Under the pieces are notes generated by a model that was not told the origin of the DNA, did not search any database, and worked only from the letters and a program-made list of their open reading frames with translations. This document shows, in pieces, positions 1 through 28,000 of a DNA stretch of 50,941 bases (position 1 is its first letter; each line of letters opens with the position of its first letter). The stretch is from Synergistaceae bacterium. Its GTDB lineage: Bacteria; Synergistota; Synergistia; Synergistales; Aminobacteriaceae. The position numbers were made by a program, and so were the translations under genes. The DNA lies in contig JAISQE010000119.1 of the NCBI GenBank assembly GCA_031274425.1, positions 1 through 50,941 on the forward strand, written 5' to 3'.

Positions 1-462
1 TTATTCTCAACAATATGCATAATATGACCCCTGCTGTACCTATAATTTACAGACTATTATAGGTCTAATTTCTTGAAAAATCCAGTATCTTCAATACTAG
101 AAAACTAAACCTATAAAAAATTCCGGGGATTTACGTTTTAAACACTGTCTTTTCTCGAACGTCATAGATATTAGAGGTTCAGTGCAAAACATTCAGAATA
201 TAATATCTATTTAATGAGATTCGTCACGCGTCAATTTAGTCCTGGATTATTCAGAAAATTAAGAGTCTATATTTTCAGATGATTAAAAAATAAAGACATA
301 ACAAATTTCAACGTCTCAAATTTCCCATAAAGAATCTAAAGAAAATCTATTATACAAAATTAATTGAAATTTCCATCTCATTGGGTCAATTATATTAACC
401 GCATCCTCCTTTTATTGCTTAACCCCTGGTCTGAATTTCTGGGGCCATTATAGCTTTTTTTC
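1..462. other. AT-rich region without a credible gene
   Basis: This stretch lies downstream of surE and is strikingly richer in A and T than everything to its right. I see no open reading frame with a ribosome binding site and recognisable protein character. It holds a 9-bp inverted repeat (ACCTATAAT at 38-46, ATTATAGGT at 56-64) and a further ACCTATAA at 109-116. No strong T-tailed hairpin directly follows surE. It could be a decayed gene or horizontally acquired DNA, or the edge of a regulatory region for a gene outside the window. Confidence 0.5.
38..64. repeat. 9-bp inverted repeat in AT-rich DNA
   Basis: ACCTATAAT (38-46) and its exact reverse complement ATTATAGGT (56-64) are separated by 9 bases. 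A related half-site ACCTATAA recurs at 109-116. It could be an operator or a small hairpin. In DNA this AT-rich, chance is a real alternative. Confidence 0.35.
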
Positions 463-1293
463 TTAACACTGATTTATTTTGAGCTTGTCGATTTCCTCCG
501 CGCCGACGCGGTCGTTGAGACCGTAGTCTGTGGTGTCGTATTGCAGGAAGGTCAAAGCGACGAAACCGTCGTTCACCGCCTTTACGTCGCTGCCCTCCAG
601 TTCTTCGGAGTCGGCGGGAGCGCCCTGAATCCAGTAGCACGGATCTCCTCGCGGGGTCATGATCCTTTGAACGCGATCCCGATAACGGCGGCGCCCGGTA
701 AAAGTCATTTTAAAGCCCTGGATCTCCGAAAGCGGCAGATTCGGGACGTTCACGTTCAGAAGGGCGGCTTCTCGGCCCCCATTCTCGCCAAAGCCGCCAA
801 AAAAGACGTTCAAATTCTCCACCAGAATTTCGGAGACTCGAACGGCGGTTTCATAGTGTTCTTCTTCGCGGGTTCCTTCGTCCCGGGCGGGATATTCCAC
901 GGCAAGCGACATCGCGATGGCCCCGCGGTTTTCGAAATACCCCTCCCGCGCCGCCGCCACCGTTCCAGAATAAAAAACGTCGCGCCCCATGTTGGGGCCG
1001 CTGTTGATTCCGGCGAGCACCAGTTCGGCGTCCGGCGCCGCGACGCCCAGCCCCAGCAGCGTGGAATCCGCCGGGGTTCCGTTGCATTTGAACGTTCGCA
1101 CTCGCGGGTCGTACCCTGGAAAGGTTCCCCGTTTGAGGTGCAAAGAGGTGGTGGTGACGGAGTGCCCCGCCCCGCTGCGCTCCCGGTCGGGAGCGACGAC
1201 CGTGACGGCGTGCCCCAGTTCGGCCAGCCGATTGCTCATGAAGATAATGCCCGGCGCGTGAACGCCGTCGTCGTTGGAGATCAAAATTTTCAT
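463..1293 (-). CDS. surE: 5'/3'-nucleotidase SurE
   Basis: SurE is a divalent-metal-dependent phosphatase acting on nucleoside 5'- and 3'-monophosphates in the cytoplasm. The 276-aa protein starts MKILISNDDG, with the metal-binding Asp pair at residues 8-9. It goes on with SGAGHS, CNGTPAD and the family signature INSGPNMG followed by YSGTV. The length is normal, slightly long at the C-terminus. The ATG is preceded by AAGGAA at good spacing. It is the last gene of a minus-strand run and begins 27 bases after the M50 protease gene. Nothing suggests loss of function. Confidence 0.95.
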   Translation of the reverse strand: MKILISNDDGVHAPGIIFMSNRLAELGHAVTVVAPDRERSGAGHSVTTTSLHLKRGTFPGYDPRVRTFKCNGTPADSTLLGLGVAAPDAELVLAGINSGPNMGRDVFYSGTVAAAREGYFENRGAIAMSLAVEYPARDEGTREEEHYETAVRVSEILVENLNVFFGGFGENGGREAALLNVNVPNLPLSEIQGFKMTFTGRRRYRDRVQRIMTPRGDPCYWIQGAPADSEELEGSDVKAVNDGFVALTFLQYDTTDYGLNDRVGAEEIDKLKINQC

Positions 1294-18330: not shown

Positions 18331-19671
18331 TTATTCCCAGGCGGATGTTTTTCGTACGTCCGGCTTCTTGCCGAATACGGCCGCGAAGGCTTGGTCAAGG
18401 TCCTCGATCAGGTCCGACGGGTCTTCGAGGCCGATGGAGAGCCGGATCAGGTTTGGCTCGATATGGGCTATCCTCTGCTCGTCCGGCGTGAGCTCGCCGT
18501 GTGTGGTCTTGGGGGAGTTCACGATCAAGGACCGGGCGTCGCCGACGTTCACGTGGTAGCTGAATAATCGGACCGAGTCGATGAACGCCTCGATTTGTTT
18601 TTCGTCCCCTTTGAAGCCGAAGGAAAAAATCGCCCCCGCGCCCAAGGGCAGGTATTTTTGCGCCAGCTTGTAGTAGGGGCTGTCGGGCAGCGACGGGTAC
18701 TTTACCCACTCCACGTACTCGTTGCCAAGAAGATATTCCACTATTATTTTCGTGTTGGAGACCTGTTTCCGAACGCGCTCCGAGAGGGTTTCGATGCCGA
18801 CGAGGGCGAGATACGCCTCGAAGGGGCCCAACGTGGCTCCGGTGTAGCTGAGGTAGTCTGTTCTGATGCGGAACGTGAACGGCGTGTTAGGGAAAACTTC
18901 CAGCGAATTCCGCGGTTCTCCGTCCATGTTGCGCAGAGTGTATTGTTTTTCCATAAATTGCGGAAATTTCCCGTTATCCCAGGGGAATTTCCCGCTCTCC
19001 AGGACGATGCCGGCGATGAGATTGCCATGCCCCGACAGGGCCTTGGTCGCGGAGTAGATCACGATGTCGGCCCCGTACTCGATCGGCCGGAGGAGGTAGG
19101 GCGTCGCGAAGGTATTGTCCACCACCAGGGGAATGCCGTGGCGGTGCGCGATCCGGGCAAGCGCCTCTATGTCGGCGACCACGCCGTTGGGGTTGCTGAC
19201 GCTTTCGATGAATAGACCTTTGGTGTCCGGCTGAATCAACGTTTCAAGGGCGTCCAGGTCGGAGAGGTCCTCCGCCAGATCCACATGAATGCCGAGCCTC
19301 GGGAATATTTTTTTGAACCCGTCCGCGGTGCCCCCGTATAGCCAGGGCGTAGAGAGGATGCGGCCGCCGTTCTCCGCCAGGTTCAACAGCGTATAGGTGA
19401 TGGCGGCCATGCCGGAGGCGAGCGCGATGCCGCCCGACGCGCCATCCAGCGCCGCCGCGCGCTGTTCCAGCACCCCGACCGTGGGATTGCTCCCCCGGCT
19501 GTAGCGCCAGCCCGGTTCCTCGAAACGAAACAGACGTTCGGCGCGCGCCGTGCCGCCCAGATCATAAGACGCGGTTTGGTAGATCGGCACCGAAACCGCG
19601 TGGTTGTGCTCTTCCGAATTATAGGCCGCCCGCACTTTGAGGGTGTCGAAGCGGTACGTGTTCTCAGACAT
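18331..19671 (-). CDS. metY: O-acetylhomoserine sulfhydrylase (MetY-type)
   Basis: This PLP enzyme converts O-acetylhomoserine and sulfide (or methanethiol) into homocysteine (or methionine). The 446-aa length fits MetY better than the shorter MetB/MetC/MetZ. Visible marks are YSRGSNPTV near 58-65, ALASGMAAI, the DNTFATPYLL segment and the PLP lysine K210 in YSATKALSGHGN. The C-terminus has VGDARSLIVNSPKTTH and LIRLSIGLED. GGGGAG precedes the ATG. It lies 43 bases after the YczE-type gene and ends the sulfur-related operon that starts at the ABC binding protein. Confidence 0.93.
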   Translation of the reverse strand: MSENTYRFDTLKVRAAYNSEEHNHAVSVPIYQTASYDLGGTARAERLFRFEEPGWRYSRGSNPTVGVLEQRAAALDGASGGIALASGMAAITYTLLNLAENGGRILSTPWLYGGTADGFKKIFPRLGIHVDLAEDLSDLDALETLIQPDTKGLFIESVSNPNGVVADIEALARIAHRHGIPLVVDNTFATPYLLRPIEYGADIVIYSATKALSGHGNLIAGIVLESGKFPWDNGKFPQFMEKQYTLRNMDGEPRNSLEVFPNTPFTFRIRTDYLSYTGATLGPFEAYLALVGIETLSERVRKQVSNTKIIVEYLLGNEYVEWVKYPSLPDSPYYKLAQKYLPLGAGAIFSFGFKGDEKQIEAFIDSVRLFSYHVNVGDARSLIVNSPKTTHGELTPDEQRIAHIEPNLIRLSIGLEDPSDLIEDLDQAFAAVFGKKPDVRKTSAWE

Positions 19672-19714: not shown

Positions 19715-20380
19715 TTATTTAACCAGGCTTTCTGACGCTCTCCATACGTTTTTTATGGATGCCAGCACGCTTTCATGCTGAATCGCCCTCACGTCAAAAC
19801 GCAATAATTTAAACGTGTACTCCAGGATCAGGCCGATCCCCAAGACGGAGACGACGGTGCCGATCCCGATTTTTGCGCCCAGCGACCACCCTGTCAGAAG
19901 AGCCGTTCCCTCGATCAATCCCCTGATAAGGCCGATCGACGTTTGGGGCAGGCGTTTTCCAAGCGCCACCATCAGTAAATCTCTTGGCCCGCAGCCCAAC
20001 CCGGCACTGATATAAAAGTAGCTGCCTACGCTCATGAACAGCAATCCCAGCAGCAGAACCGCCATTCCAGCCGCGAAATTGTCGCACAAAGGCATCAGGT
20101 CGGCCCTGAGCAGCAGATCGGTGAATTTCCCGATCAGCACGGCGTCTAAAATTGTCCCGATCCCGAGCCGTTCGTTCAACAGGTGGTCGACAACGAGGAT
20201 AACCGCCGAGGCGAGGACGCTGACGTCTCCAAAAGATATTCCGCCGATTCCTGACACGCCCATGTTGAACGCCGACCAAGGCGTGAGCCCGATGTTCGCC
20301 TGAATAGACAGATAGCTGCCCACGGAAAAAAGGAACAGTCCGAATATCAGTTTCGCGATTCTCCATGACAGCCGCTTCAT
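19715..20380 (-). CDS. YczE/YitT-type integral membrane protein
   Basis: The 221-aa protein has about five hydrophobic segments and the features of the YczE/YyaS/YitT group: GSYLSIQANIGLTPW near the N-terminus, and SVGSYFYISAGLGCGPRDLLM in the middle, which has the same Gly-Leu-Gly-Pro pattern. These proteins have no proven biochemical function. Some lie beside transcription factors or amino acid transport genes. GGAGGAGG precedes the ATG. Sitting between an SsuABC-like transporter and metY, it may move or sense a sulfur compound (inference). Confidence 0.75.
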   Translation of the reverse strand: MKRLSWRIAKLIFGLFLFSVGSYLSIQANIGLTPWSAFNMGVSGIGGISFGDVSVLASAVILVVDHLLNERLGIGTILDAVLIGKFTDLLLRADLMPLCDNFAAGMAVLLLGLLFMSVGSYFYISAGLGCGPRDLLMVALGKRLPQTSIGLIRGLIEGTALLTGWSLGAKIGIGTVVSVLGIGLILEYTFKLLRFDVRAIQHESVLASIKNVWRASESLVK

Positions 20381-20424: not shown

Positions 20425-21252
20425 TTATATCGCATACTCTACGGGAGCCTCCGCGCCCGCCAGGTGAAATTTTTCGAGCACTTTGTTGCGCAGCTCCACG
20501 AATCGGGCGCTGCTTCTGCTCCTGGGGCGCGGGTAGTCGGCGTCGATGATCTCGCTTATCCTGCCGGGTCTCGGGGTCATGATGACGATGCGGTCGCTCA
20601 GGTAGACCGCTTCGTCGATGTCGTGCGTCACCAAGATGATCGTCGCCGAGAACTTCTGCCAGAGCTCCAGCAGCTTTTCCTGCAGGTCCATTCGGGTGAA
20701 CGAGTCGAGCGCCCCCATCGGCTCGTCCAGAAGCAGCGCCTTGGGCCTGTTGATCAGCGCTCGGGCCAAAGAGGCGCGTTGGGCCATGCCGCCGGATATC
20801 TGGTGCGGGTACGACCGCTCGAACCCCTTGAGCCCGGCCATGGCGATGTACTCCGCCACGTCGCCGCGGTATTCCTCGTACACGCCGCGCGCTTTGAGCC
20901 CAAAGGCGATGTTCTCCTCCACGGTCTCCCACGGAAACAAGTTGGCCTGCTGAAAAACGTAGCCGCGCTCGTGGCTCGTGCCCGTCACGGGCTCGCCTTC
21001 GACGAGAAGCTCCCCCGACTGGGGCGCGTCGAGACCCGCTATCAGCCTCAAAAGGGTCGTCTTGCCGCAGCCCGAGGGACCGATGAGGGAAACGAACTCG
21101 CCTTTTCGTACGGAGAGATCGACGTTCTCCAGGGCGGAGACGCTTTTCTCGCTTTTTTCGCGGGCGTCCCAGAAGACGCGCGTTACGTTTTTTACCTCTA
21201 TGATGACGGGCGGGGCGGCAGGGGAGTTAATGACGATAGAGGGGGAGCTCAT
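20425..21252 (-). CDS. ABC transporter ATP-binding protein (SsuB/TauB type)
   Basis: The 275-aa ATPase has Walker A GPSGCGKTT, the Q-loop FQQANLFPWETV, the signature ISGGMAQRASLARAL and Walker B ALLLDEPMGALD, with the H-loop in VTHDIDEA. The FPW pattern after the Q-loop and the MGALDSFTR stretch are typical of nitrate/sulfonate/taurine importers. The start overlaps the preceding permease stop (ATGA). It energises the two permeases encoded just upstream. An N-terminal extension of about 15 Pro/Ala/Ser-rich residues is unusual. Confidence 0.93.
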   Translation of the reverse strand: MSSPSIVINSPAAPPVIIEVKNVTRVFWDAREKSEKSVSALENVDLSVRKGEFVSLIGPSGCGKTTLLRLIAGLDAPQSGELLVEGEPVTGTSHERGYVFQQANLFPWETVEENIAFGLKARGVYEEYRGDVAEYIAMAGLKGFERSYPHQISGGMAQRASLARALINRPKALLLDEPMGALDSFTRMDLQEKLLELWQKFSATIILVTHDIDEAVYLSDRIVIMTPRPGRISEIIDADYPRPRSRSSARFVELRNKVLEKFHLAGAEAPVEYAI

Positions 21253-22211
21253 TTCACCAGTCCTTTCTGCCAGGCGAGCAGCCTGTTTTTTATCGCGTTG
21301 ATCACAGCCAACACCAGAGTGAAGGAGACCGCCATGAGCAGGATGGCCGCGTAGACGCTCGCGTAGTTCATCCACCCCATCGCGATGTTGATGTAGTAGC
21401 CAAGCCCTCCCCTGGCTCCCACCATCTCGGAAACGACCAGCGTGCTGAAGGATATTCCCGTCGCGGTGGATATTCCCGTGAAGATGGAGGGCACTGCCCC
21501 GGGGATGGCGATTTTGCGGAGCATGTACCCGTTTTGAGCGCCAAGCGTGCGCGCCGCCTCGAAGTAGGATTTGTGAATGGATTTGATTCCTCGCGCGGTG
21601 GTGAACGCCACGGGGAACCAGGCGCTGATCGCGACCAGCGCCACAGCGGTAGAAAATGTGCCGGGCATGACGATCAGAACGATCGGGATGAGCGCGATCG
21701 CCGGAATGACCCCGACGACCTTCATGACGGGGAAAAGCCAGTAATCCCACAGCTTGGACCACCCGATCAAGATGCCGCTCACCACGCCGCAGAAGGCCCC
21801 CGCCGCAAAGCCCGCCGCGAAAAGGCGCAGGGAGTAGAGGCAGTTCAGCGCGTGAGCGCTCCGCTCCCGGAAGAGCACCTCCATGATCTGCGCGGGGCCG
21901 GGGAAGAACGGCAAGGGCAGCGACCCCGTTTTGGACGAGAGGACGTCCCAGACCATGAGCAACGCCCCGGCCGCGAAAGTGAACTGCGACCTGTGGTTGT
22001 ACTTGAGCGCGAGCTTTTCGTCGTGGAAGGCGCGCAGATAGCAGACCGCGGTGTGAGCTGCCAGCGCCAGCAGAAAAACACGATAGGGCCTCTCGTCGAC
22101 CTCGATGATGGGCCGCATCGCTATGTTGACGACCAGAGCCGCGGGGTAGGAGAGCGCCGCGAGAACCTGCCAAGCGTTGGAGCGGGGTTTCCAGTACGAG
22201 GATTTATTCAT
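21249..22211 (-). CDS. ABC transporter permease (SsuC/TauC type), first paralogue
   Basis: The 320-aa inner-membrane protein has a BPD_transp_1 domain with the EAA loop EAARTLGAQNGYMLRKIAIPGAVPS cut short here: EAARTLGA then IPGAVPSIFTG. It has the LPLPFFPGP entry and VVSEMVGARGGLGYYI that mark the NitT/TauT family. An additional hydrophobic N-terminal region of about 90 residues precedes the usual domain. It overlaps the second permease gene by 8 bases and is clearly similar to it throughout, so the pair arose by duplication and probably forms a heterodimer. Confidence 0.9.
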   Translation of the reverse strand: MNKSSYWKPRSNAWQVLAALSYPAALVVNIAMRPIIEVDERPYRVFLLALAAHTAVCYLRAFHDEKLALKYNHRSQFTFAAGALLMVWDVLSSKTGSLPLPFFPGPAQIMEVLFRERSAHALNCLYSLRLFAAGFAAGAFCGVVSGILIGWSKLWDYWLFPVMKVVGVIPAIALIPIVLIVMPGTFSTAVALVAISAWFPVAFTTARGIKSIHKSYFEAARTLGAQNGYMLRKIAIPGAVPSIFTGISTATGISFSTLVVSEMVGARGGLGYYINIAMGWMNYASVYAAILLMAVSFTLVLAVINAIKNRLLAWQKGLVK

Positions 22212-23181
22212 TCGTGAGACCGCTCTGCCATGCCAGGACTTTGCCGCGAACGAAGTTCAGCAGGGCCAGCACCGCCGAGAAGACCAGCGCCATAACGGCG
22301 ATCGCGGCGTAGACCTTCGAGTACGCCGACCACCCCTTCGCCCAGTTGATGTACCACCCGAGCCCCGCCTCCGCCCCCACCATTTCGGAGACGATGAGGG
22401 TGCAGAACGACAGCCCCGTCGCGGCCGACACCCCCGTGAAGATGGAGGGCGCCGTGGCCGGTATCGCCACATGGCGCAGGATAAATCGATCGTCAGCCCC
22501 CAGCGTGCGCGCGGCCTCGAAGTAGGAAATCTGTATCGAGGCGATGCCGTTCGTCGTGGCCAGGGCGACGGGGAACCAGGAACATATCGCGATCATGAAG
22601 ACGCCGGTGATGAAACTCGACGGGAAAACGGCCATCCCAAAGGGTATCCACGCGACCGCCGGCACGATGCCGCATACCTTGAGCACCGGAAACAGCCAGT
22701 AGTTCCACTGCCTGGACCAGCCGATGAGGATGCCCGTGACGACCCCGAGAACCGTCCCCGAGGCGAAACCGTAAGCGAAGAGACGCAGGGAGTACAGGGT
22801 GCTCCGTAAAAGCTCCCGCCAATCGGCGCGGGCCACCTCCACGATTTGGACCGGTCCGGGAAAAAACGGCAGCGGAAATATTCCGGCCTTGGTCGAGAGC
22901 ATGTCCCAGGCCAGGAGGGCTATCCCCACCGCCGCGAAAAACCGGGCCTTGAACTCGACCGCCGCCTTGACGCCGGGCCTGAAAAACGACAGCCCGTATC
23001 TCCCCGCCATATAGAGGGCGATGAAACCGACTAGAGTCCGATAGGGCGTCTCGTTGATGGCGCGAACGGGCGGAATCAGGATATTTCCCCCCAAGGCGAA
23101 GGCGAAGGCGAGAATCGCCAGAGGCGGCCAGGGTGAAAAGCCTTTTTTCCCGCGAACGTCGCCCCCTGTCTCATGCCTCAT
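22204..23181 (-). CDS. ABC transporter permease (SsuC/TauC type), second paralogue
   Basis: The 325-aa protein shares the layout of its neighbour: a hydrophobic N-terminal extension, LPLPFFPGPVQIVEV, SLRLFAYGFASG, the EAA loop EAARTLGADDRF with IPATAPSIFTG, and VSEMVGAEAGLGWYI. It overlaps the binding-protein stop by 4 bases (ATGA). Most NitT/TauT systems use one permease as a homodimer, so two distinct adjacent permeases are less usual. Confidence 0.9.
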   Translation of the reverse strand: MRHETGGDVRGKKGFSPWPPLAILAFAFALGGNILIPPVRAINETPYRTLVGFIALYMAGRYGLSFFRPGVKAAVEFKARFFAAVGIALLAWDMLSTKAGIFPLPFFPGPVQIVEVARADWRELLRSTLYSLRLFAYGFASGTVLGVVTGILIGWSRQWNYWLFPVLKVCGIVPAVAWIPFGMAVFPSSFITGVFMIAICSWFPVALATTNGIASIQISYFEAARTLGADDRFILRHVAIPATAPSIFTGVSAATGLSFCTLIVSEMVGAEAGLGWYINWAKGWSAYSKVYAAIAVMALVFSAVLALLNFVRGKVLAWQSGLTNE

Positions 23182-24218
23182 TTTTTCGTCGTGCCAAGGA
23201 CGTCGTAATACACGTCATCCACCCATTTTTCGACGTCGAGGTTCTTCCCCTGAAAGAACCCCGCCTTTTGCAGTCTGCTTGCGAAGTAGTAGGCGTCCGC
23301 TTTCGGGTCGCTGGGCTGGCCGGTGCCGTGCAGGTGCTGGGTCCCGTGGTACTTGTACTCCGAAAGGAGCTGCGTCAGGAGGGCCTGGTCGCTTGTTTTG
23401 ACGTAACCCTGTTCTATCTCGATTTTTGCCGCCTCCGACGGGTTTGCCCCTATCCACTCGATCGCCTTGTTGTAGGCGCGAAGAATGGCCTCGACCTTCT
23501 CGGGTTCTTCTTTTATCTTTTTATTCGAGGCGTAGAGGAAGCAGCAAAACCTGCCGGCGAAAAGCGGATCCGTGGCGATGTCGGAGATGACCTGATAATT
23601 CTGGTCTCTCACCGCCAGAGACCCGAAGGGATCCCACGCCGAGTACGCGTCGATCTCGCCCTTGCCGACGGCGACCGAGAGCTGATCGAGGGGGTAGGGG
23701 CGCCACTTCACGTCTTTGGTGGGGTCGAGCCCCGCCTCGGCGAGCACCAGGCTCGCGACGAAGAAGGGAGTGCCGCCGATCTGGTCGACGCCTATGGTTT
23801 TACCCTTCAAGTCCTTGGCGTTTTTGATGCTCGAGTCCGGGGGAACGATCAGTTTGATGCATCCCTCGTGCAACCCGGCGACGATCTTGAGGTCGAGCCC
23901 CTCAACGATCGACGGAAAAAAGTTGAAATCTCCGTTCGCGACGTAAAACTTGCCGCTGGCGAGCCCGGCTTTTTGCGTCTCGAAGTTCCCCGCCACCAGC
24001 GTGACGTCGAGCCCTTCCTCCGCGAAGAACCCCTTCTCGAGCGCGATGTACGCCGGAGCCCCGCAGGCGGAGCCGGAACGGGCCTGAATCTCGATGCTTC
24101 CCAGTTTGAATTTCTCCTCTTTAACTTTCTCCTCCGCGGCCTCGGCCAGGCTTACGCCGAGCGCCAACAACACGGCCAACAACAACAGCGATTTTTTTAT
24201 TGCGGTTTTGTCTTTCAC
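23178..24218 (-). CDS. ABC transporter substrate-binding protein (SsuA/TauA/NMT1-like)
   Basis: The periplasmic receptor has a Sec signal peptide (KKSLLLLAVLLALGVSLAEA) and a type II binding-protein fold: APAYIALEKGFFAEEGLDV, LKGKTIGVDQIGGTP and GEIDAYSAWDPFG. These fit the nitrate/sulfonate/taurine cluster. Cysteines in SACGAP and in RFCCFLYAS are unusual for a periplasmic protein. I chose the GTG at 24218 because AAGGAG lies 8 bases upstream. The GTG at 24227 sits directly on that site. It is the first structural gene after the long leader. A sulfur-containing ligand is inferred from metY downstream. Confidence 0.9.
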   Translation of the reverse strand: MKDKTAIKKSLLLLAVLLALGVSLAEAAEEKVKEEKFKLGSIEIQARSGSACGAPAYIALEKGFFAEEGLDVTLVAGNFETQKAGLASGKFYVANGDFNFFPSIVEGLDLKIVAGLHEGCIKLIVPPDSSIKNAKDLKGKTIGVDQIGGTPFFVASLVLAEAGLDPTKDVKWRPYPLDQLSVAVGKGEIDAYSAWDPFGSLAVRDQNYQVISDIATDPLFAGRFCCFLYASNKKIKEEPEKVEAILRAYNKAIEWIGANPSEAAKIEIEQGYVKTSDQALLTQLLSEYKYHGTQHLHGTGQPSDPKADAYYFASRLQKAGFFQGKNLDVEKWVDDVYYDVLGTTKK

Positions 24219-24381
24219 GTTCGTCACTCCTTAAAGTGTGTCTTCGGCGTCATGAAAACGCCACGCTATGAAAACGCCTCTGAGATTCTCAAAAAACGCC
24301 TTTTCGATTTTCTCGACTTCCTCAATACCCTGCCGCTCCCGGAGCACCACCTCCCATCCCATCCCTGCCATATCCAGCCCC

Positions 24382-24419
24382 AAAAAGAGAGTCGGCCTGC
24401 CGATGACAGACCGACTCTC
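24382..24419 (-). terminator. strong intrinsic terminator in the ABC-metY leader
   Basis: GAGAGTCGGTCTG pairs with CAGGCCGACTCTC (13 bp with one G-T pair) around a 7-base loop, directly followed by TTTTT on the minus strand. It lies inside the operon leader, about 160 bases before the binding-protein start. It must therefore be overcome for expression, as in attenuation. Confidence 0.85.
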
Positions 24420-24449
24420 AAAAAGCGCCCCTCCGGGGCCGTAACGCTT
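24420..24449 (-). terminator. second, weaker hairpin with T tail in the same leader
   Basis: CCCC-GGA-GGGG is flanked by AAGCG and CGCTT, with a 6-base bulge on one side, and is followed by TTT. It starts about 10 bases after the leader-peptide stop codon and directly precedes the strong terminator. It could be the first of tandem terminators or part of a pause or antiterminator fold. Confidence 0.5.
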
Positions 24450-24459
24450 CTCGATGCCT

Positions 24460-24591
24460 TTATATCCGAGTGTTCATCCAACAGACATGATCCCTATGCA
24501 AATATCCGGCGCGGCGACACATCCGCATCGGAAGAACAGTACGACACATCATATTTGCGTTTGCGCTCTGAATCCAAGGATGTCCGCTCAT
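24460..24591 (-). CDS. candidate Met/Cys-rich leader peptide (43 aa)
   Basis: The small frame starts about 23 bases after the predicted transcription start, with AAGGA at 9-base spacing, and ends 10 bases before the terminator hairpins. Of 43 residues, six are Met and three are Cys, clustered as NMMCR (13-17), PMRMCRR (21-27) and VCWMN (36-40). Arg (six) is also frequent. This enrichment, the position, and the downstream sulfur transport and metY genes suggest a leader peptide whose translation senses charged Met- or Cys-tRNA. It could instead be a chance frame within a structured RNA leader, since GCAAATAT at 24551-24558 pairs with ATATTTGC at 24498-24505. Confidence 0.5.
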   Translation of the reverse strand: MSGHPWIQSANANMMCRTVLPMRMCRRAGYLHRDHVCWMNTRI

Positions 24592-24621
24592 GACCTCATA
24601 TCCTTTCGATAAATTGCGCTC

Positions 24622-24650
24622 AGTATAGGGGACGTTTTCCTGTCTGTCAA
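24622..24650 (-). promoter_or_regulatory. consensus sigma-70 promoter of the ABC-YczE-metY operon
   Basis: TTGACA (24645-24650) and TATACT (24622-24627) are separated by exactly 17 bases on the minus strand. It lies about 400 bases before the first structural gene, leaving a leader of about 390 nt. Confidence 0.85.
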
Positions 24651-24806
24651 TAACCTCGCAATCATATTTATTTTATATGCAATAAGATGGCGACTCGACT
24701 TGCCCCGGCTTCGGAGGGGCGCCGATAAACGCTTGCCGCTCTTTGGAATTTTCGCTGGGAGTTTTTTTGTAATCTAGGGGAACCCTTCCGAGAGTTTAGT
24801 TTTTAG

Positions 24807-24835
24807 TTGACGTATTGGAAAAGATAGGGTAAACT
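24807..24835 (+). promoter_or_regulatory. promoter of tRNA-Leu
   Basis: TTGACG (24807-24812) and TAAACT (24830-24835) are spaced by 17 bases on the plus strand, about 30 bases upstream of the mature tRNA. The 150 bases between this and the divergent ABC promoter hold only a GC hairpin near 24703-24722, without a T tail. Confidence 0.75.
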
Positions 24836-24866
24836 TTTTCCCGTTCATGAGGCAAGTTCTGAGTGC

Positions 24867-24953
24867 GCCCGGATGGCGGAATTGGTAGACGCGCTAGATT
24901 CAGGTTCTAGTAGTCGCAAGGCTGTGGAGGTTCGAGTCCTCTTTCGGGCACCA
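24867..24953 (+). tRNA. tRNA-Leu (anticodon CAG)
   Basis: The 87-nt class II tRNA has acceptor GCCCGGA paired with TTCGGGC (G-T at one position), discriminator A and an encoded CCA. The anticodon arm CTAGA/TCTAG encloses TTCAGGT, with anticodon CAG. A long variable arm and the T arm GGAGGTTCGAGTCCTC follow. It decodes the leucine codon CUG. Confidence 0.95.
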
Positions 24954-24962
24954 TAAAAATTG

Positions 24963-25004
24963 AAAAGGATATGGTCATGTCGCTTGACATGGCTGTATCC
25001 TTTT
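24963..25004 (+). terminator. long hairpin after tRNA-Leu
   Basis: AAAAGGATA pairs with TATCCTTTT, and inside it CATGTC pairs with GACATG around a short loop. The 3' side ends in TTTTG. It probably ends the tRNA transcript. Its 3' half also carries the -35 box of rpoB. Confidence 0.7.
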
Positions 25005-25012
25005 GTTATGAT
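24984..25012 (+). promoter_or_regulatory. consensus promoter of rpoBC, inside the tRNA-Leu terminator
   Basis: TTGACA (24984-24989) and TATGAT (25007-25012) are spaced by exactly 17 bases, about 50 bases upstream of the rpoB ATG. The -35 box and spacer are part of the preceding hairpin. Confidence 0.8.
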
Positions 25013-25062
25013 TATATTTCGGCATAAAATTTCCCCGACCAGTAAGGGAGGTCTTTTAGTCC

Positions 25063-28000
25063 ATGCCCGAGTTCGTTTCAGTCAGCAAAAAACGGCAGCG
25101 TTTTACTTTTGGCCGCGTGCACGACCTCATAGAAATACCCGATATGATTGAGGTTCAGCGCGCTTCTTACCGTTGGTTTTATCAAGACGACGTGGCGCCG
25201 GATTCACGTGAAATGCAAGGCTTGCAGGAGCTTTTGCACGAAGTTTTCCCTATCGAGAGCTATGACGGTCAATTTGCGCTGGAGTTTGTTCGCTACTATG
25301 TCGACCATCCCAACCTGACGGAGGAGGAGGCGCGCCGGCGCGACATGACGTGGGCGCGCCCGATTCGCGCGACCATCCGTCTGACCAACACGAAACTTCA
25401 GGAAATCAAGGAAGAAGAGATCTTTCTCGGAGACTTTCCCGTAATGACCGAGCGAGGGACCTTCATCATCAACGGAACGGAGCGCGTCGTCATCAATCAG
25501 TTGGCGCGCTCGGCCGGCGTTTATTTCACGAAAGAGGACTCGATCCCGGGCCAGGAGTCCTGTACGGCGAAGATCATTCCCGACAGAGGAGCCTGGCTGG
25601 ATTTCGCGACCGCTCCCGGCGAGATCGTCTCGGTCAACATCGACAACCGGAAAAAATTGCCCGTTTCTTTGTTGCTGAAAGCCTTTGGCGCTAAAGACAA
25701 CGAGGAGATCCTCGGGCTGTTCGGCGCCGAATCCGTGTTTATGGAGTTCAGCGATGAAATGAAGGGAATGCTGGCCGCCGCGGAGTTCAAGGACCCGGAC
25801 GGCAACGTGATTGTGGCGCGCAACCGCCCTATCACCCGCGACGCTTTGGAAAAATTGAAGCAGTTGGACCCGGAGGGACGCGGCGGCATCGAGGTGCAGG
25901 GCATCGACCCCTCTTTGGCCTTGACTTTGGAGAAGGATACGACCCAGAGCACCGACGAGGCGATGCAGGAAATTTTCCGGCGCCTCCGCCCCAATGAGCC
26001 CGCTCGTATAGAAAACGCGAGAGACTACCTGTACTCGCTCTTTTTCGACCCCCGGCGCTACACCCTGGGGCGGGTGGGGCGCTACAAACTCAATCGCCGT
26101 TTGAGGTTGGACGTCTCGGAATCCACCCGCCTTTTGACGCGGGAGGACCTGTTGAGCATCGTGCGCGAGATGTTCGCCATGCGCGCTCTCGACAAGAAGA
26201 GCGACGACATCGACCACCTGGGAAATCGCCGGGTGCGCTCCATCGGGGAGTTGCTCCAGAACCAGATTCGCATCGGGCTTCTGCGTATGGAGCGCATCGC
26301 GAAAGAACGCATGACGACCATTCCGAACTTGAGCACGGCCATGGGCCGCGAGCTCATCAACGTGCGCCCGATCGCCGCGGCGCTTCGCGAATTTTATGGT
26401 TCCGGCCAGTTGTCCCAGTTTATGGACCAAACGAACCCCCTGGCGGAAGTCACCCATAGACGGCGTCTTTCCGCGCTGGGCCCTGGGGGCCTGAGCCGCG
26501 AGCGCGCGGGTTTCGAGGCGCGCGACGTCCACTACACCCATTACGGCCGCGTCTGCCCCATCGAGACGCCGGAAGGGCCGAACATCGGCTTGGTGTCGTC
26601 TCTCACGACTTACGCTCGATTGAACGAGCACGGATTTTTGATCACGCCGCGCCGCAAGGTCGAAAAAGGCAAGCTGACGGGCGCGATAGAGTTCCTTTCC
26701 GCCGACGAGGAGGACAACTACCACGTCGCCATGGCGAACACGCCCCTGGAAGAGGACGGAGCCACCATCAGCGGAACGGAATGCCCCACGCGGCACCAGG
26801 ACGACGTCGACACGATTCCCGTCGAAGAGGTCGACTATATGGACGTTTCGCCCAAACAGATCGTCTCCTCCTCGACGGCGCTTATTCCCTTCCTGGAGCA
26901 CGACGACGCCAACAGGGCCTTGATGGGCTCCAACATGCAGCGCCAGGCCGTTCCCTTGATTTTCCCCGAAGCTCCTATTGTGGGGACGGGGATCGAACAT
27001 CGCATCGCCAAAGACTCGGGGTCCTGCGTGGTGGCGCTGGAGTCCGGCGAGGTCATGTGGGTGGACTCGGGGCGCATTGAGCTGCGATCGAAAAAAGGAC
27101 ACAGCCACGTTTACGATTTGATCAAATTCAGGCGTTCGAACCAGGGCACGATCATTCACCAGCGCCCCTTGGTGGAAAAGGGCGAGCAGATCGAGAAGGG
27201 AACGATCATTGCCGACGGACAGGCCGTCGACAACGGGGAGCTCGCATTGGGGCAGAACGTCCTGGTCGCCTTCGTCCCCTGGGAGGGGTACAACTTCGAG
27301 GACGCCATACTGCTCAGCGAGAACCTGGTCAAAGAGGACAAGTTTTCGTCCATACACATCGACGAGTACGAGATCGAAGCCCGCGAGACGAAACTGGGCC
27401 CGGAGGAGATCACCCGGGACATTCCCAACGTGGGCGAGGATATGCTCAAAAACCTTGACGATAGCGGAATCATTCGCATCGGAGCCGAGGTGAACTCGGG
27501 CGACATCCTGGTGGGGAAGGTCACTCCCAAAGGGGAGTCGGATCAAACTCCCGAGGAAAAGCTTCTTCGCGCGATTTTCGGGGAAAAGGCGCGGGAGGTG
27601 CGCGACAACTCCCTGAAATTGCCTCATGGAGCCAGGGGCAAGATCGTCGCCGTAAAGCAGATGACCCGCATGGACAACCCGGAGGCGCTTTCTCCGGGCG
27701 TGATTCGGACCGTGAAGGTCTACGTCGCCCAGTGGCGCAAGATCACGGTGGGGGACAAAATGGCGGGGCGGCACGGCAACAAAGGCGTCGTCAGCCGCAT
27801 CCTTCCTGTGGAGGACATGCCCTATCTGCCGGACGGCACGCCGGTGGACGTGGTTTTGAACCCTCTGGGCGTTCCCAGCCGCATGAACCTGGGTCAGGTT
27901 TTGGAGACCATCATGGGTTTCGTGGCGTTGAATAACGGATGGCACGTGGCCACGCCCGTTTTCGAGGGCGCCCAGGAGAAAGAAATTTTCGAGAACATGG

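Follow-up and report, generated by a model that had tools for sequence, protein, structure and literature searches.

A leader region in the DNA analyzed here quite probably functions as a ribosome-mediated transcription attenuator with a Met/Cys leader. The larger and more interesting result is a modular family of leaders that extends across the phylum Synergistota. It appears likely that this phylum uses one cassette, in which the RNA switch (a GGAUCYUC box, a stop codon, and a GGGGAUCC-type terminator) is fixed and the codon run is exchanged (Met, Cys, branched-chain, Thr, or Phe/Tyr), and that some metY2 operons carry independently evolved Cys/Met leaders. Among these is the operon in the window, by which is meant the whole 50,941-nucleotide stretch of Synergistaceae DNA that was analyzed. 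The label metY2 is given here to the O-acetylhomoserine sulfhydrylase-like gene of the window and to its subfamily.

All of the elements described lie on the minus strand of the window, and they are listed below from promoter to last gene.

24622..24650, minus strand: sigma70-type promoter, TTGACA-17-TATACT, matching 11 of 12 consensus positions
24601..24606, minus strand: Shine-Dalgarno-like AAAGGA, 9 nt 5' of the leader ATG
24460..24591, minus strand: 43-codon leader ORF with an ATG start and 9 Met/Cys codons, including the start
24544..24552, minus strand: Met-Met-Cys cluster, codons 14-16
24517..24528, minus strand: Met-Arg-Met-Cys cluster, codons 22-25
24475..24483, minus strand: Cys-Trp-Met cluster, codons 37-39
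24420..24449, minus strand: terminator 1, with a GCCCC-GGA-GGGGC core (24439-24427), an outer AAGCG/CGCTT arm, and a T-tail
24382..24419, minus strand: terminator 2, with a 15-bp stem, a 3-nt loop, and five T residues (hairpin 24419-24387)
23178..24227, minus strand: SsuA/NMT1-like ABC substrate-binding protein (SBP)
22204..23181, minus strand: ABC permease (BPD_transp_1; SaoP/NtrB/SsuC-like)
21249..22211, minus strand: second ABC permease (BPD_transp_1; SaoP/NtrB/SsuC-like)
20425..21342, minus strand: ABC ATPase (SaoA/NtrCD/TauB-like)
19715..20380, minus strand: YczE-like membrane protein (NF052291, under its curated cut-off)
18331..19671, minus strand: metY2, O-acetylhomoserine sulfhydrylase-like PLP enzyme (TIGR01326, 454 bits against a cut-off of 495)

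The Shine-Dalgarno-like element and the three codon clusters were located by reading the sequence. The original prediction had described a consensus promoter with perfect spacing, and the 17-nt spacer is indeed present, but the -10 element (TATACT) keeps the site from full consensus. This promoter is the sole sigma70-like site on the minus strand of 23800-25200. The 43-codon frame encodes MSGHPWIQSANANMMCRTVLPMRMCRRAGYLHRDHVCWMNTRI and holds, as had been proposed, six Met (start included) and three Cys codons in three clusters (MMC, MRMC, and CWM). The two tandem T-tailed hairpins and the ABC-YczE-metY operon that had been described are likewise borne out, and these intrinsic terminators, of which the second is far stronger than the first, sit between the leader ORF and the first operon gene. 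When the leader was dinucleotide-shuffled 5000 times, the best ORF held nine or more Met/Cys codons in 0.24% of cases (p=0.0024), and the leader ORF has the highest Met/Cys content among the 160 window ORFs of 30-60 aa. Such enrichment fits the content of the operon, which combines SsuA-type ABC genes with metY2. The composition and position of the leader ORF, together with the lack of any other recognizable promoter, are the strongest direct support for attenuation.

In the proposed mechanism, a shortage of charged tRNA-Cys and/or tRNA-Met would cause the ribosome to stall at the MMC, MRMC, or CWM clusters, after which the leader RNA would refold, RNA polymerase would pass the terminators, and the operon would be transcribed. 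When charged tRNAs are plentiful, the ribosome would instead reach the stop codon and transcription would end at 24420-24382. The window leader would be one of several Met/Cys leaders of the metY2 subfamily, following the logic of the modular attenuators without their sequence module.

The metY2 subfamily is small, with 10 members spread over 6 of the 188 Synergistota genomes. Met/Cys-rich leader ORFs, each followed by a T-tailed hairpin, precede the metY2 genes at G072:C122 (MNGSRIQDMCMCSRMQRMEDCRCKYMSMKPHLP), G146:C59 (MHKRISNVNIIVCSVSAMRMSCCACMPMCSTLPIPKPA), and G146:C63 (MRKAPCICRTCICRICKADRDIPLYFPS), and a weaker Met/Cys leader ORF that lacks a terminator precedes metY2 at locus L261. By one fixed criterion, four of 10 other metY2 operon heads score against a background of 0.016 per 400 nt (1.6%), and the resulting binomial p of ~1e-5 is only indicative because the heads were inspected after the pattern had been suspected. 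Several metY2 operon heads have no leader. The recurrence of Met/Cys leaders in metY2 relatives is the strongest comparative support for an attenuator in the window, and the metY2 leaders of Synergistota, including that of the window, appear to have arisen independently in a lineage-specific manner. Every leader of the subfamily holds several Cys codons, and Cys is more constant than Met (the leader at G146:C63 has no internal Met, given its ATG start). Cysteine, rather than methionine, may therefore be the true or common signal of these leaders.

Other metY2 loci present features of their own. The window genome has a second metY2 (L180, G000:C102) without a Met/Cys leader, and this gene is preceded by sulfite-reductase-C-like, TusA-like, MoeB-like, and JAMM-like genes (the TusA-like and JAMM-like calls come from reading of the sequence), a set that resembles a sulfur-carrier route to homocysteine. 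Also, nitrogenase alpha-like and beta-like genes, scoring under their family cut-offs, lie ahead of metY2 at L261:608-3423 (G146:C59), and these possibly encode a nitrogenase-like reductase for sulfur salvage.

A comparison of leaders from orthologous operons had been suggested by the original prediction. The nearest orthologous ABC operons, found in two close relatives (L032 and L033; SBP 86% identical), have no leader and begin directly after unrelated coding sequence. No close match to the window SBP is present in the same-genus genomes G070 and G071; in G070, the site upstream of rpoB instead holds metY with its own leader. Furthermore, a DNA search of 83 family genomes revealed no homologous leader DNA, only short matches at chance level, the best of which (E 3.6e-4, 48 bases) falls at the 3' end of the query in the terminator region.

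Neither a SAM riboswitch nor a T-box had been recognized in the leader when it was first described, and a search with Rfam covariance models agrees, giving no match to these or to any other Rfam family. Matches of the leader to PtaRNA1 and suhB were far under their cut-offs and were rejected. 6S RNA (RF00013) was rejected as well, its sole match in the genome, above cut-off, lying at G000:C75:395-570.

A mutually exclusive antiterminator fold had also been named as a feature to look for, but none was found in the window leader that beats shuffled sequence. Sequestration of the terminator 5' arm is no better than in shuffled leaders (fractions 0.25-0.62), and in equilibrium folding terminator 2 does not open at any ribosome position (formed 0.92-0.99). 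However, equilibrium folding also leaves the terminators closed in nearly all conserved Synergistota leaders, so this outcome is compatible with antitermination during transcription of the window leader. Equilibrium folding of the whole terminator is uninformative because the terminator nearly always wins, and truncated transcripts were folded instead. The attenuator proposed at the outset is partly supported. The makeup and placement of the ORF favor it, together with the promoter, the terminators, and the genes that follow, as do the independent leaders before other metY2 genes and the clear Met and Cys attenuators on sulfur genes of the same genome and phylum, whereas the leaderless L032 and L033 operons, an antiterminator that does not rise over shuffles, and a terminator 2 that stays closed count against it.

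Among competing explanations, the one that fares best, although unlikely, is that the region is a free-standing short unit (a small RNA or peptide) ending at the tandem terminators, with the operon transcribed from an unrecognized promoter in 24381-24228. A terminator 2 that is strong and closed in every ribosome-masked equilibrium fold would suit such a unit, as would the ~155 nt between this terminator and the first gene and a leader fold that is somewhat more stable than shuffles (z -2.1). Yet the interval from 24382 to the first gene yielded no sigma70-like promoter, no Rfam family matches the leader and the 6S RNA of the genome lies elsewhere, and analogous Met/Cys ORFs with terminators are located directly before metY2 in G072 and G146. 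More doubtful still is the idea that the short 5' leader contains its Met/Cys-rich ORF by chance and that translation of this frame has no role in operon control. This explanation would account for a leader that occurs in a single genome with no homologue found, for an antiterminator that does not exceed the null, and for the leaderless metY2 heads, but it is difficult to reconcile with the shuffle result, with the rank of the ORF as the richest of 160, and with the recurrence of Met/Cys ORFs before other metY2 genes. A new ligand-binding riboswitch (e.g., for a sulfur metabolite) with an incidental ORF is very improbable, since the arrangement of a 5' leader with terminators at its end before a metabolic operon, and the S-box riboswitches at two loci with related ABC genes (L034 and L036; Bacillota/Clostridia records), are outweighed by a search at E up to 10 that returned only two non-riboswitch families, far under their cut-offs, and by the lack of a conserved structure that follows from finding no leader homologues.

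Attenuation, the preferred reading for the window leader, can be followed more closely in conserved Met leaders of the same phylum. A conserved leader (MMMC...GSSPG) that is part of the modular family lies upstream of canonical metY in some members of the family and is followed by a terminator, as in the window's own genome (MFKHATSIEAQFAMSMMMCMDCGSSPGAIGV at G000:C83). The pattern ATGATGATG-12-GGNWSNYCNCCNGG is present in 26 of the 188 Synergistota genomes, and the pattern read backwards does not occur among the genomes listed. An ORF plus a terminator is carried by all of the 30 pattern loci but L231, which was set aside as a chance match inside coding sequence. Recognizable next genes at these loci are metY, metQ, metX, or cystathionine-synthase-like (family search gave the metQ and metN annotations, and the remainder come from sequence reading).

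In these leaders, a GGAUCCUCG box located 3' of the Met codons is the complement of CGGGGAUCC, the 5' arm of the terminator, with 9/9 pairing in most leaders of the type. Changed yet still paired boxes occur at L243 (GGAUCUUCG/CGAAGGUCC) and L244, and a second box type (GGAUCUCCUCC) pairs across 7 positions. In a set of 16 leaders, 92% of cells are paired in the antiterminator and 97% in the terminator, and sliding lowers the antiterminator value to 54% or less; covariation judged by shuffle controls is modest for the antiterminator (4/500) and good for the terminator (0/500). When truncated, ribosome-masked transcripts are folded, the terminator arm is sequestered with the A-site up to the Met/Cys codons and is released one or two codons past them in nearly all conserved leaders. 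Because the box stands at a fixed distance from the codons, this drop is a consequence of that spacing, which is itself the real observation. Relative to shuffled upstream sequence, sequestration is always over the mean, with individual fractions of 0.00-0.34, and a test in which region 2 and the terminator arms were swapped gave p=0.02-0.2, a weak outcome because the sequences are highly conserved. An antiterminator/terminator switch is supported for the conserved Met leaders by these predicted pairings. At one locus (L201, G019:C23:66200-67022), a SAM-I riboswitch (511-613, minus strand) lies directly upstream of a Met leader (~338-455, minus strand) and metY, such that two distinct methionine sensors occur in tandem.

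R1, a sequence model of the conserved Synergistota leader, matches 111 of the 188 genomes, representing 48 of 63 genera, where about two matches are expected from E-values. An out-of-phylum control, which took 37 genomes encountered via other loci, gave two matches, both weak (E 0.002 and 0.007). A candidate leader ORF is present at each of 39 R1 matches inspected, and in many of them the codon run is a different one (leader loci are L220-L249 and L296-L335). Branched-chain codon runs lie ahead of ilvN, ilvC, and ilvB (ilvN by sequence reading), a FFEYYY (Phe/Tyr) run ahead of PaaK, and a TITTMTT (Thr) run ahead of homoserine dehydrogenase. Cys/Met runs are found ahead of SsuA-like proteins, cysE, and an SsuC/SaoP-like permease of the window genome, where the module leader has CAMCLC (L296, G000:C180). 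A module leader with CTMYFY (L297, G000:C6) also precedes an SsuC/SaoP-like permease in that genome, and at L329 (G001:C3) an aspartate kinase gene follows the leader MSMKPAVPHHPAACAMTMTSGDPPGEVGA, which has Met/Thr codons.

For 17 of 18 leaders tested, the drop in sequestration comes close to where the codon run ends; the exception, L298, shows no sequestration, and its terminator probably was mis-located. When 47 leaders are tabulated, those of sulfur pathways are fully set apart from those of other pathways, although the entries were classed by eye after the genes had been seen, such that the table illustrates the rule and is no test of it. No Rfam family overlies the module leaders tested, save a SAM riboswitch upstream of one. 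R1 has no match in the window, and by this model the window leader lacks a GGATCYYC-CC-NGG box after the codon run that would match the terminator 5' arm. A suggestive alignment of MRMCRRAG (window) with MMMCAVRG was not taken as homology because R1 gives the window no score.

Methionine genes are usually thought to be under the control of SAM riboswitches, T-boxes, or repressors. SAM-I riboswitches and T-boxes, the usual terminator-based systems for these genes, were not found in the window by Rfam search. Amino-acid attenuators (trp, his, ilv, leu, thr, and phe) share with this leader a promoter, an amino-acid-rich short ORF, and a terminator before structural genes, but the window leader would sense Met and/or Cys, has tandem terminators, and has an antiterminator that is only putative. 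The one proposed Met leader peptide encountered in the open literature searched is the Streptomyces lividans metL leader MSTTSDRTPATEATTTPGARCMCRRMCAF, proposed upstream of metNIQ (PMC8079986). It too is a leader peptide rich in Met/Cys that stands ahead of an operon related to methionine, but it is leaderless, has no clear terminator, and belongs to another phylum, whereas the window leader has a Shine-Dalgarno-like sequence and two terminators. Cys runs in a short ORF before sulfur or Cys genes are likewise known from mycobacterial and actinobacterial Cys-codon uORFs (PMC4633059; Seliverstov et al., PMC1262725) and from the uORFC-8-2 motif upstream of cysS (PMC8632094). However, intrinsic terminators are missing from the mycobacterial uORFs, the gene under uORFC-8-2 control encodes a tRNA synthetase, and no Met run is described. 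The Synergistota module (MMMC...GS[SP]PG, A1/A2, R1) applies the same logic and is present in the window's genome ahead of metY and of sulfonate-type permeases, but the window leader does not match it. No prior reports of such leaders in Synergistota were found in open papers and the few subscription papers covered, and the phylum-wide modular family is, as far as the open literature shows, a new form of known attenuation.

Leaders with Met/Cys codons recur before sulfur genes within one phylum, and the conserved cassette yields a prediction, that leader codons name the sensed amino acid, which can be read from genomes. Leader codons could also name the substrates of poorly annotated Synergistota transporters, and the modular leaders offer a natural collection in which the coupling of codon runs to an unchanging RNA switch could be tested. 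Many module leaders end in Pro-Pro-Gly (conserved C-terminal GS[SP]PG), which is a ribosome-slowing motif. This ending may tune the timing of the ribosome, or it may merely mirror the RNA box.
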